Assembly (NCBI GenBank): GCA_030426955.1 | Contig: JAUHXS010000002.1 | Coordinates: forward strand, 186,001-250,000 | Origin: Bacteroidia bacterium | GTDB taxonomy: Bacteria > Bacteroidota > Bacteroidia > Chitinophagales > JAUHXS01 | Direction of reading: 5' to 3' | DNA length: 64,000 bases | Part shown: positions 57,925-62,675 of the stretch, one piece after another | Position numbering within the stretch: position 1 is the stretch's first letter | How the letters are laid out: every line of letters starts with the position of its first letter | Position numbers and translations under genes: made by a program | The notes under the pieces: generated by a model | What the model was told of the DNA's origin: nothing | Seen by the model: only the letters and a program-made list of their open reading frames with translations | Databases searched by the model: none

Positions 57925-57967
57925 AATGCAAAGATATGAACTATAGTGAAATAATAAAATTGTAAAA

Positions 57968-58025
57968 CTCCCCTCCTTTTTTAAGGAAGGGGATAGGTCC
58001 GAAGGACTCTCCTTTGGAGGGTGGT
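57968..58025. repeat. REP-like GC-rich palindromic element, copy C
   Basis: Between the small membrane protein gene and slyD. It has the arms CCCCTCCTT and AAGGAAGGGG (hairpin with one bulge) then GGTCCGAAGGACTCTCC and CTTTGGAGGGTGGT. The latter part is nearly identical to copy A (one changed base in the GGTCC-AAGGAC loop). Same strand as copies A and B. Confidence 0.65.
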
Positions 58026-59615: not shown

Positions 59616-61274
59616 TCAGTCTAGTCTTTCCTTTATATCTAACCCAAACTTTCTAGCCGTATCTTTTGCAATATCATATCCAGCATCTGCATGTCTAATA
59701 ACACCCATAGCTGGATCATTATTTAAAACTCTTTTAAGTCTTCTAGCTGCATCTTCTGTTCCATCAGCTACGATAACCATACCTGCATGTAAAGAGTAGC
59801 CAATACCAACGCCACCTCCATGGTGAAAAGAAACCCAGCTGGCACCTCCGGCAGTATTAATTAAAGCATTTAAAATAGGCCAATCTGCCACAGCGTCCGA
59901 GCCGTCTTTCATGCCTTCTGTCTCTCTATTAGGAGAAGCAACAGATCCTGTGTCTAAGTGATCTCGCCCGATTACAATAGGAGCTTTTACCTTTCCTGTT
60001 TTGACTAAATCATTAAAAAGTAAGCCTGCCTTTTCCCTTTCTCCCATACCTAGCCAACAAATTCTACAAGGTAATCCTTGAAAGGCTATTTTTTCTTGTG
60101 CCATTTTGATCCAACGTTCAAGGCCTTTGTTTTCTGGGAATAGCTCTAAAAGGGCTTTATCTGTTTCGTAAATATCTTGTGGATCACCAGATAATGCAGC
60201 CCACCTAAAAGGACCTTTCCCCTCACAGAATAGTGGACGAATGTATGCAGGGACAAATCCAGGGAAATCAAAAGCATTTTTAACACCCATTTCTAAAGCC
60301 TGTCCTCTTAGGTTGTTGCCATAATCAAAAGTAATGGCCCCCTTGTTTTGTAATGCCAACATTTGTTTTACATGCAATGCCATAGTCTCACTAGACTTTT
60401 GAACATATTCTTTCGGATTACTCTCGCGAAGTACTTTAGCTTGCTCAACGGATAAATCCTTTGGAAAGTATCCAACTAGTGCATCATGAGCAGAAGTTTG
60501 ATCTGTTAAGGTATCTGGAGTAATATTTTGATCAATCAAGACTTGTAAAAGATCAACTACATTGCAAACTACTCCAATGGAAATGGCTTCCCTCTTTTCT
60601 TTTGCATCTAATGCCCATTGAATACCTTCTTCAATAGAATGTGTTTTTTTATCAATATATTTTGTCTCTAAACGTTTATCAATTCTCCATTCTTCCATTT
60701 CAGCGGCTAGGCAAACACCTTCATTCATGGTGATGGCTAGTGGTTGAGCGCCGCCCATTCCTCCAAGACCTGCTGTTACGTTAAGTTTGCCTTTCAGTGT
60801 GCCACCAAAATGCTTATCTGCAAGTGATAAAAATGTCTCATAAGTACCCTGCACAATACCTTGTGAGCCTATATATATCCAAGATCCAGCGGTCATTTGA
60901 CCATACATCATCAATCCCTTTTGTTCCAACTCTCTAAAGTGATCCCAATTAGCCCAGTGTGGTACAAGGTTAGAATTAGCGATGATAACTCTCGGCGCAT
61001 CTTTATGTGTAGGAAGAATGCCAACTGGTTTGCCAGATTGCACTAAAAGTGTTTCATCATCATCTATATCTTTCAAGGCTTTAACGATCAACTCAAATGA
61101 TTCCCAATTACGAGCTGCTTTCCCCGTTCCGCCATATACGACCAAGTCTTCTGGACGTTCCGCAACTTCTGGATCTAGGTTGTTATGAAGCATTCTTAGT
61201 GCGGCTTCTTGAACCCACCCTTTGCATGAAATATCCGTTCCAGTTGGTGATTTTAAAATTTTTGTAGCAGCCAT
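59616..61274 (-). CDS. hutU: Urocanate hydratase
   Basis: 552-residue NAD-dependent enzyme of histidine breakdown that converts urocanate to imidazolone propionate. Recognisable blocks: [20 protein letters not shown] at the N-terminus, [60 protein letters not shown] (NAD-binding) and [20 protein letters not shown]. Normal length. hutH, hutI and hutG are not next to it, so the pathway is split. Its promoter region is shared with the divergent thioredoxin-like gene. Confidence 0.95.
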
Positions 61275-61327: not shown

Positions 61328-61350
61328 GTTAGGAGTCCTAACTATATTTG
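61328..61350 (+). promoter_or_regulatory. Palindromic operator 1 with -7 box, upstream of the thioredoxin-like gene
   Basis: GTTAGGAGTCCTAAC at 61328-61342 is a perfect 15-base palindrome with a central G. It abuts TATATTTG (61343-61350), an exact TAnnTTTG box. The ATG of the thioredoxin-like gene is 36 bases downstream. A near-identical palindrome is found upstream of the globin gene. Confidence 0.7.
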
Positions 61351-61386
61351 TGTCGACAATATGTCATAACTATTAAATATAAAAAA

Positions 61387-61620
61387 ATGAGTAAGTCAGT
61401 ATTTTATCACGCAGGTTGTCCTGTTTGCGTAAGTGCAGAACATGAAGTAATCGAATTATTAGGAGCTGAAAATGTTGAGGTAGTGCATTTTGGAAATGAC
61501 AAGTCTAGAATTGATGAGGCAGAACAAATAGGAGTTAAATCAGTCCCTGCCTTAGTTACACCAAGTAAAAATGTATTACATATCAACTTTGGAGCGTCTA
61601 TGGCTGATGTAAGAGGATAA
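61387..61620 (+). CDS. Small thioredoxin-fold protein with CPVC motif
   Basis: 77 residues from the ATG at 61387 (MSKSVFYHAGCPVCVSAEHE); an in-frame ATG at 61348 lies within the promoter box and is rejected. It has the CxxC pair (Cys11, Cys14) at the end of strand 1, followed by EVIELLGAENVEVVHFG, and GVKSVPALVTPSK, where the Pro before Ala is the expected cis-Pro. Glutaredoxin or thioredoxin-like, about 77 residues, no signal peptide. The two genes downstream (globin, MarR) share a promoter of the same type, so this looks like a co-regulated redox group. Confidence 0.75.
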   Translation: MSKSVFYHAGCPVCVSAEHEVIELLGAENVEVVHFGNDKSRIDEAEQIGVKSVPALVTPSKNVLHINFGASMADVRG

Positions 61621-61669
61621 AAAATTTGCCCCATATTGTTAGGATTCCTATCTTTGTGGGGCGAATTTT
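61621..61669 (+). promoter_or_regulatory. Operator 2, promoter and terminator-like hairpin upstream of the globin
   Basis: AAAATTTGCCCCA (61621-61633) pairs with TGGGGCGAATTTT (61657-61669), 13 bp with one wobble, directly after the thioredoxin-like stop, so it can serve as its terminator. Inside are TTTG (61625-61628), a 20-base spacer and TATCTTTG (61649-61656), together a complete promoter for the globin, and the palindrome GTTAGGATTCCTATC (61638-61652) overlapping the -7 box. It matches operator 1 with two base differences. Confidence 0.65.
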
Positions 61670-61692
61670 GTTTTACTGAAGGCGTCTAGGTA

Positions 61693-62067
61693 ATGAAAAG
61701 AGACATAGAAACCAAAGCAGACATTATCTTATTGGTGGACACTTTTTATGACGTGATAAAAAGTAATAAAACATTAGGATATATATTTAATGATGTTGCA
61801 CAAATTGATTGGGAAGAGCATTTGCCCAAGATGTATTCTTTTTGGGCTAGCATTTTACTAGGTGAACATAGTTATTCTGGCAATCCGATGCAAAAGCATA
61901 TTGCATTGAGTAAGAAGACTGCATTAGGGGAACAAGAGTTTTCCGAATGGGTAAAGATATTTTTTGAAACGATTGATCATTTATTTGAGGGAGAGAAGGC
62001 AAATGAGGCAAAAATTAGAGCTGAGAATATAGCTCGACTAATGCATCACAAAGTTCAGTCTATATGA
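61693..62067 (+). CDS. Group III truncated hemoglobin
   Basis: 124-residue heme protein of the trHb group III family. Evidence: an N-terminal helix with KADIILLVDTFYDVIKSNK, where Tyr19 is the probable B10; HLPKMYSFWASILLGEHSYS; the GNPMQKHIAL block with His69 as probable proximal F8 heme ligand (family pattern Y-x-G-x-P-x3-H); and EWVKIFFETIDHLFEG with the conserved Trp. Members handle NO or O2 in other bacteria; the role here is not known. ATGA overlap with the MarR gene. Confidence 0.83.
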   Translation: MKRDIETKADIILLVDTFYDVIKSNKTLGYIFNDVAQIDWEEHLPKMYSFWASILLGEHSYSGNPMQKHIALSKKTALGEQEFSEWVKIFFETIDHLFEGEKANEAKIRAENIARLMHHKVQSI

Positions 62068-62675
62068 AAAAATCAGCTTTTGATTTAAATTTTCAGAATT
62101 TAAGCATTGACAGTAAAATCATTGCTTCCTTAGAGCGTATTGCTCAAATCTTTAGAGTCTTGTTATGGGAAGAAAGCAAGGAGTTTGCTTTAAGCCCCAT
62201 ACAGGTGCAAGTGCTCATTTTCGTACTATTTCATTCTGAAGAAAAGAGAAAAGTAAGCTACTTGGCAAGTGAGTTTAATATGACCAAAGCTACTATAAGT
62301 GATGCCATTAAGTCATTAGAGCAAAAACAATTGATAGAAAAAGAGTACGAACTGCATGATACTAGAAGTTATGTGATTCACTTGACTTCTAAGGGACGTG
62401 ATATTGCTCATAAAACTTCTTTGTTTACAAGTCAATTACAGATTCCTATAGAAAAGCTACCTGATCCTGATAAAGGAAGTTTGCTATCAAGTTTATTGGA
62501 CATAATAAAGCATTTGCATGGAGCAGGGTTAATCTCTACCCAAAGGATGTGCCTAAGTTGTAGGTTTTATAAGGCAGGCCAAGGTAAGCAAGACCATTAT
62601 TGCCACTTGCTAGATCAGACACTTACTTCAAATGAATTGAGAGTTGATTGTCTAGAACACCAACTAGTGAACTGA
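62064..62675 (+). CDS. MarR family regulator with four-Cys C-terminal extension
   Basis: 203 residues. The winged-helix core (about 40-115) has SPIQVQVLIFVLF, YLASEFNMTKATISDAIKSL as the recognition helix region, EYELHDTRSYVIHLTSKGRD as wing. Unlike typical ~145-residue MarR proteins, it continues with ~60 residues that contain Cys163, Cys166, Cys180 and Cys196 (CLSC-x13-C-x15-C, with His178 and His181 nearby). That spacing suggests a zinc or Fe-S site. Overlaps the globin stop by 4 bases, so likely made from the globin transcript and possibly self-regulated through operators 1 and 2. Confidence 0.82.
   Translation: MKKSAFDLNFQNLSIDSKIIASLERIAQIFRVLLWEESKEFALSPIQVQVLIFVLFHSEEKRKVSYLASEFNMTKATISDAIKSLEQKQLIEKEYELHDTRSYVIHLTSKGRDIAHKTSLFTSQLQIPIEKLPDPDKGSLLSSLLDIIKHLHGAGLISTQRMCLSCRFYKAGQGKQDHYCHLLDQTLTSNELRVDCLEHQLVN

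Follow-up and report, generated by a model that had tools for sequence, protein, structure and literature searches.

Gene organization at the locus

The window, by which we mean the entire 64,000-nucleotide stretch of DNA analyzed, carries three plus-strand genes, trxL, a globin gene, and marR, which occupy the gap between hutU and glmS (Table 1). Both of these neighbors lie on the minus strand, with the 5' end of hutU, the urocanase gene, at 61274. The globin scored above the cut-off of the Pfam Bac_globin model (25.9 against 21), and its sole PDB match at E<=0.001 was 2ig3, annotated as 'Group III truncated haemoglobin' (E 1.7e-17), which we take to be Campylobacter Ctb, an NO-linked globin. 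By this closest relative, the window globin is assigned to the group III truncated hemoglobins and is a putative heme binder. The trxL product scored below the Pfam cut-offs and matched the solved 'Thioredoxin' 2k8s (E 6.3e-23), indicating homology to the thioredoxin fold in a protein with a CxxC motif. The regulator exceeded the cut-offs of two MarR models in Pfam (PF12802, 34.7 against 27; PF01047, 30.9 against 24.6), and the start of its gene lies within the globin stop codon in an ATGA overlap. Elsewhere in the window (57965-58025), we noticed by eye an intergenic stretch resembling an inverted repeat, CCCCTCC...GGAGGGTGG, possibly a dispersed repeat.

Table 1. Positions of the genes and regulatory features of the trxL-globin-marR cluster in the window
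Feature	Position	Strand	Evidence
Operator 1, GTTAGGAGTCCTAAC, perfect 15-base palindrome	61328..61342	.	
-7 element TATATTTG of promoter 1, immediately 3' of operator 1	61343..61350	+	register +15
trxL, thioredoxin-like protein, 77 aa, CPVC motif	61387..61620	+	
Likely -33 element TTTG of promoter 2	61625..61628	+	sequence
Operator 2, GTTAGGATTCCTATC, one mismatch to the palindrome	61638..61652	.	
-7 element TATCTTTG of promoter 2, starting within the last bases of operator 2	61649..61656	+	register +11
Group III truncated hemoglobin, 124 aa	61693..62067	+	Pfam PF01152 and PDB 2ig3
marR, MarR-family regulator, 203 aa, C-terminal Cys4 domain	62064..62675	+	

Operators and promoters

The Bacteroidota promoter consensus is TTTG / TAnnTTTG, and both promoters of the cluster hold GTTAGGAnTCCTAAC between their -33 and -7 elements. 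The register of each site was expressed as the start of the -7 element counted from the operator start, which is 15 bases at site 1 and 11 bases at site 2. Given that operator 2 precedes the globin-marR pair, the palindrome lies at the promoter of marR itself, where it is a putative binding site. Across the whole genome (3,408,186 bases), operators 1 and 2, located 310 bp apart, were the only sites within one mismatch. With up to three mismatches, matches occurred at chance level in the window (4 compared to 2.72 expected) and at background level in the genome (99 sites compared to 138 for the reversed control). The -7 element was checked at 15 genome loci (L020-L034), comprising both operators, all six sites with two mismatches, and seven of those with three, and TAnnTTTG was in register at operators 1 and 2 alone. 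A wider regulon in the host genome was rejected for the six sites at two mismatches and for those examined at three, given that they lack a -7 element in register. The first-pass annotation had described the three-gene cluster, the ATGA coupling of globin and marR (confirmed at 62064-62067), and a nearly identical 15-base palindrome in both promoters, and had read the whole as a self-contained unit. The sequence establishes the gene set and the operator placement as described, with one perfect palindrome and one carrying a single mismatch. The regulatory unit also looks self-contained among the sites examined, since no further one combines the motif with a promoter in register.

Co-occurrence of the regulator and the operator

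Relatives were gathered by protein, not by motif, using a profile of ten MarR relatives. The named set consisted of 80 MarR loci (874 kb), the best of 499 confirmed relatives and hence close ones, and the sampled set consisted of 30 MarR loci (106 kb) from 29 of 392 genomes of the phylum, at E<=1e-20. At up to two mismatches, the operator was present in 75 of the 80 named loci (101 sites; reversed control, 3) and in 23 of the 30 sampled loci (42 sites; reversed control, 3), and it was not found at this threshold in the remaining 7 sampled loci. L133, which is among these 23, has its sites away from the operon start. Nearly all sites of the named loci (97/101) fall within 2.6 kb upstream of marR, and among these 97 a -7 element was in the +15 register in 59 and in the +11 register in 12, together 71, with neither in 26. 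TTTG at the -33 offset of promoter 2 was found at 14 of the 97 sites.

A search for trxL at E<=1e-8 over the same 392 genomes returned 17 genomes, of which 13 also encode the MarR. The operator (up to two mismatches) was upstream of trxL in all 13 genomes with MarR compared to none of the four without it (Fisher p 4e-4), and in each of the 13 it starts 52-69 bp upstream of the trxL start codon. Two DUF2024 loci that lack MarR (L187 and L188) also lack the operator at two mismatches. The palindrome therefore tracks the regulator rather than the target gene in this sample of 392 genomes. In eight genomes of relatives, the exact 13-base core occurred once in each of five, always inside the marR locus as verified by sequence, and was absent from three. 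With up to one mismatch allowed, each of the eight had fewer copies of the core than of the reversed control, and so only exact or well-placed sites count.

These comparisons establish the co-occurrence of operator and regulator, and we are highly confident in the link between the two, with binding of the MarR to this DNA predicted from sequence. A regulatory link through the shared palindrome, which had been suggested from the window alone, thus gains strong comparative support (13/13 versus 0/4; 75/80; 23/30). The check proposed along with it, a search of related genomes for the palindrome upstream of homologs of the cluster genes, was run for trxL and favored the link: in the 392-genome sample, trxL genes without MarR lack the palindrome, and those with MarR keep it. 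The further suggestion that the three genes form a unit stands with a refinement. Recurrence of trxL and marR was confirmed, but the trio as such is not conserved, given that the globin is interchangeable and DUF2024 is a usual member.

Partner genes of the regulator

The most recurrent arrangement is trxL with marR, usually together with DUF2024, and the globin is exchanged for a protoglobin or a cytochrome P460/c'-beta. In the sampled loci, trxL was present in 13, DUF2024 in 13, and c12, a recurrent secreted protein, in 7, while 14 contained a heme gene (truncated hemoglobin in 4, protoglobin in 5, P460 family in 5). At least one partner was found in 25 of the 30, and no tested partner in 5. 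The named loci contained trxL in 64, DUF2024 in 57, and a heme gene in 21 (truncated hemoglobin in 10, protoglobin in 13, HTHP in 1, P460 in none), with no partner in 2. The control set of 30 loci included six (L210-L215) picked for having trxL or DUF2024; the control counts per gene equal those of these six, so the partner genes occur in none of the other 24. The genome of the window organism gave no match to DUF2024.

The c12 protein has SHPDFDDTPLWDE and HxHW invariant in 11 aligned rows, gave no Pfam or NCBIfam match and no PDB match at E<=0.001, and was modeled by AlphaFold with a pLDDT of 67. Genes for c12 (with a SHPDFDDTPLWDE-like motif and HxHW) lie at or near the four-Cys marR in Bacteroidota and Alphaproteobacteria (L118, L124, L125, L129, L132, L146, L148, L149, L150, L151, L205, L207, and L208). 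Three loci (L047, L052, and L087) carry tandem protoglobin genes, and by eye the second of each pair appears to encode a signal peptide, which suggests an exported protoglobin; the Pfam Protoglobin assignment was confirmed in L047. Another protoglobin (L053:4847-5428) is very near that of Methanosarcina acetivorans (2veb, E 6.4e-74), a similarity in sequence that suggests gene transfer. In loci without MarR, trxL or DUF2024 is found with GntR-aminotransferase, cupin, and DHDPS genes (L211 and L212; Pfam-checked in L212) or with alanine-racemase-like genes of the YggS type and AAA genes (L213 and L214; Pfam-checked in L213).

The C-terminal Cys4 domain of the regulator

The four cysteines of the window MarR are arranged as C163-x2-C166-x13-C180-x15-C196. 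Comparison establishes their conservation: Cys163, 166, 180, and 196 do not vary across the 62 MarR rows selected for alignment, and the four cysteines are likewise invariant in 24 C-termini that include Thermus and alpha-, beta-, and gammaproteobacteria. When all loci were scanned, the pattern C-x2-C-xn-C-x15-C was found in every named locus (80/80) and in all but one of the sampled loci (29/30), and the exception, L144, keeps four cysteines with a longer last loop. The AlphaFold model of the MarR (mean pLDDT 92.9) predicts that the C-terminal domain is ordered and includes a small beta-hairpin. All 50 of the Foldseek matches listed were of MarR type; the top solved matches were chains of MepR, ST1710, and AbfR, with HsmR chains also among the matches. 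The alignments of the 60 solved chains listed, of 90 in all, stop at or before query position 155.

None of the named NCBIfam MarR equivalogs, among the best 25 of 30, reached its cut-off (BilQ, 33.1 against 125; AdcR, 33 against 175), and none of the matches listed for four relatives did so either. The Rrf2 domain was absent from the 25 matches of the window MarR at E<=1; among 17 members, the Rrf2 model matched weakly in 8 (best E 0.0021), as did other winged-helix models to a similar degree. Descent of the Cys4 domain from a HiPIP was considered, given weak Pfam matches (E 0.016-0.18; HIPIP 15.6 bits against a cut-off of 22, in 3 of 24 members), and was rejected, as profile comparison with hhalign gave a probability of 2.1%. 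A PDB profile search with the Cys4 domain at E<=10 returned two unrelated chains and nothing else.

Because the four cysteines are conserved, we consider the domain a probable metal site. Given that the HiPIP link is unsupported, the sequence does not discriminate between Fe-S and Zn, and our estimate for Fe-S as the cofactor, which is judged and not computed, is close to an even call.

Occurrence beyond Bacteroidota

Using tblastn, we found MarR relatives in 181 plasmid records and examined 17 loci, 15 of them outside Bacteroidota. A whole-locus scan of the plasmid loci for TAGGAnTCCTA with at most one mismatch gave 12 sites, compared to 2 for the reversed control, and it also located the operators in Rhizobium L150 and Spirosoma L207. 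The core was near marR in 9 of the 15 non-Bacteroidota loci: it was exact in Defluviimonas, Sinorhizobium, Rhizobium SSA_523, Shinella (two), Ensifer, and Sphingopyxis and had one mismatch in Tistrella and Thermus HB27. In Thermus HB27 the core is followed by a cytochrome P460-family gene and then marR. The product of this partner gene matched the solved 7ead, 'Cytochrome_P460 domain-containing protein' (E 1e-94), and is presumably the Thermus cytochrome c'-beta of PMC11928373. One site in Rhizobium SSA_523 precedes a TlpA-SOD-marR run, and another precedes a c12 homologue on the opposite strand. The gene order in Sphingopyxis is marR-trxL-redoxin, and nnrS (NnrS) lies near the regulator gene in Defluviimonas. 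As for Bacteroidota, Spirosoma has GTTAGGATTCCTAAT followed immediately by TATATTTG, about 210 bp before DUF2024, and Hymenobacter has only a two-mismatch form of the operator, before c12.

A variant core accompanies a variant recognition helix. In Enterobacter, trxL is divergent from marR with TAGTATCGATTCGATACTA, and two Phaeobacter loci carry TAGCGAGTCGCTA. The helix reads GTxSQ in these three loci, compared to SD, SE, or TD where the core is GGAnTCC. The change in the helix together with the change in the core from GGAnTCC to CGAnTCG would fit direct contact between the two, as judged from three sequences.

The core was not found near marR in Paraburkholderia L147 or L206 (in L147 a copy lies at a distance of 4 kb) or in Thermus SG0.5JP17-16, where the start region of marR is lost together with the operator. 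The four-Cys marR of the latter strain (L209:3070-3531) adjoins nitrite-reductase genes, and no P460-family gene was found in the 6.5-kb stretch. The arrival of the denitrification cluster may have disrupted the scavenger locus of this strain.

Proposed mechanism and alternatives

We propose that the MarR would act as an autoregulated repressor of both promoters of the cluster, a reading adopted because the operator is placed between the promoter elements. A MarR dimer on GTTAGGAnTCCTAAC would fill the space from -33 to -7 and thereby block RNA polymerase. The C-terminal Cys4 domain would bind a metal center, with Fe-S more likely than Zn, and NO or a related heme-binding nitrogen species (HNO, hydroxylamine) would damage or nitrosylate this center. 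The damaged MarR would leave the DNA, allowing synthesis of a heme protein, here the group III truncated hemoglobin, that would bind or remove the ligand. The small CPVC thiol reductase would be produced at the same time and may reverse S-nitrosation or disulfide damage. With marR on the same transcript as the globin gene, repression would be restored once the signal fades. We hold this explanation as a whole, from NO-damaged repressor to induced scavenger and reductase, to be evenly balanced between right and wrong.

The choice of an NO-type signal derives from the interchangeable heme proteins, the P460-family cytochrome, the group III globin, and the nearby nnrS. Several points count against the explanation as a whole. 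The ligands of heme proteins extend to O2, CO, cyanide, sulfide, and peroxide, and only 4 of the 30 sampled loci have a truncated globin. Some sampled loci are without any tested partner (5/30) or without the operator at two mismatches (7/30), the sites of L133 are displaced from the operon start, and the two Paraburkholderia loci gave no core near marR. The neighbors of the MarR-less relatives include YggS-type, GntR-aminotransferase, cupin, and DHDPS genes, which have no clear NO role. The partner genes nevertheless lead us to favor NO or a related nitrogen species over oxygen or sulfide as a likely, rather than a proven, signal, and we judge, without computing it, that the chance of an NO-type signal is somewhat better than even. 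In its available text, PMC11928373 describes an NO-binding role as proposed for cytochromes c'-beta.

With the same repressor and operator, the Cys4 site could instead work as a switch, either a Zn-thiolate or a bare thiol, that responds to electrophiles, disulfide stress, or sulfane sulfur, with the trxL product as the main effector and the heme proteins as accessories, for example, against peroxide or sulfide. That the CPVC protein is the commonest partner in the named loci (64/80) argues for this possibility, along with the redoxin or TlpA-type genes that adjoin marR or lie one gene off in Sphingopyxis, Tistrella, and Shinella and the operator before the TlpA-SOD-marR run of Rhizobium SSA_523. 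The predicted beta-hairpin of the C-terminal domain would also be compatible with a metal knuckle. However, MarR and operator are both kept in loci that have P460 or protoglobin but lack a thioredoxin-like gene (L135, L138, and L119), and conservation of all four cysteines would suit a metal better than a two-Cys switch. We regard a thiol switch as unlikely, though a serious contender.

A signal such as hydroxylamine, cyanide, or another heme- and carbonyl-reactive poison, perceived through the small-molecule pocket of the MarR with the Cys4 domain holding a structural Zn, is in our estimation improbable. Two pieces of background bear on it: many Thaumarchaeota are ammonia oxidizers, which we invoke in its favor, and globins and cytochrome c'-beta are more familiar as binders of NO or O2, which speaks against it. 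According to the accessible parts of the sources, cytochromes P460 oxidize hydroxylamine (PMC11928373), and DUF2024 is conserved in 29 of 30 Thaumarchaeota (PMC6393860). Of the 30 sampled loci, 5 have a P460-family gene next to marR, and of the 80 named loci, 12 have YggS-type genes at a distance of up to 6 kb. A GntR-aminotransferase gene is found in Hymenobacter, and MOSC genes adjoin marR in Phaeobacter and Hymenobacter and are nearby in Shinella. Against these stand the 80 named loci, none of which was matched by the MOSC, GntR-aminotransferase, or P460 query.

We also considered that the MarR could sense oxygen and tune heme proteins for low oxygen without any poison alarm. Its setting near ccoN of a cbb3 oxidase in Shinella is in keeping with such a role, as are the FixO and COX1 subunits of a cbb3-type oxidase beside the MarR-less trHb-trxL-DUF2024 genes of L210. 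The operator, in contrast, is placed to block polymerase and not upstream of -33 like that of a classical activator, and 1 of the 80 named loci gave a match to a FixO-type query; we consider an oxygen sensor very unlikely. As an observation apart, the neighborhoods of L210-L214 hint at other regulators for the trxL and DUF2024 proteins.

Under the preferred reading of an NO-type signal, the recurrence of MarR and operator in distant bacteria suggests a little-noticed alarm system, most likely for NO or a similar poison. We tentatively put forward, at somewhat less than even confidence, a further class of dedicated NO-type sensor, made up of MarR repressors whose C-terminal domain is a Cys4 metal site and whose operator core is TAGGAnTCCTA, in Bacteroidota, MAGs labeled Ignavibacterium and Acidobacteria, Thermus, and Proteobacteria. 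Such a sensor would control interchangeable heme scavengers (globin III, protoglobin, cytochrome P460/c'-beta, and HTHP), the CPVC thioredoxin, DUF2024, and the secreted c12 protein, with core CGAnTCG and helix SQ (versus SD, SE, or TD) in Phaeobacter and Enterobacter. If true, distant phyla would share one operator with a small regulon and a sensor of heme-ligand stress open to testing, and several proteins of solved structure but unclear role (the Thermus P460-family cytochrome, protoglobins, DUF2024, and the 2k8s thioredoxin) would gain a physiological context. The idea could be tested directly in T. thermophilus HB27, a laboratory model that has the operator with the cytochrome-marR pair.

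Comparison with known systems

The thiol- or metal-responsive MarR repressors OhrR, MepR, MexR, AbfR, and AdcR have the winged-helix core and a promoter palindrome in common with the window MarR but differ in that the latter continues into an additional C-terminal domain, ~45 residues long, in which four cysteines are conserved. Campylobacter Ctb, presumably the protein of 2ig3, is the sole PDB relative of the window globin and is under NO-induced control by a Crp-type regulator, in contrast to the MarR proposed here. The heme-sensing MarR proteins PefR and HsmR are likewise tied to heme biology but control heme efflux or sequestration genes, and a Cys4 domain is not mentioned in the available portion of PMC11442138.

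The proposed logic resembles that of NsrR, an Fe-S NO sensor of the Rrf2 family that regulates NO-handling genes; in Thermus it carries an iron-sulfur cluster and targets the nir/nor promoters (PMC5748679). NsrR nonetheless belongs to another protein family, and the word MarR occurs 0 times in the main text of PMC5748679. The norR of Thermus denitrification clusters is called a MarR-family factor in the accessible text of PMC9270275. We did not accept NsrR/NorR of Thermus as the published name of the four-Cys MarR, given that PMC7694296 and PMC5748679, in their available text, do not use the term MarR and place NsrR in Rrf2/BadM. CioR of Chromobacterium violaceum is a MarR-type repressor of a heme-enzyme operon involved in NO, sulfide, and cyanide tolerance but belongs to the GbsR subgroup and controls cytochrome bd; neither a Cys4 domain nor this operator is mentioned in the available portion of PMC11837568. 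A description of the four-Cys MarR regulator was not found in the literature searched, which included few subscription papers or preprints. CioR and Thermus NsrR were the nearest in function that we found, and in the available text of these papers their authors place both in other groups.
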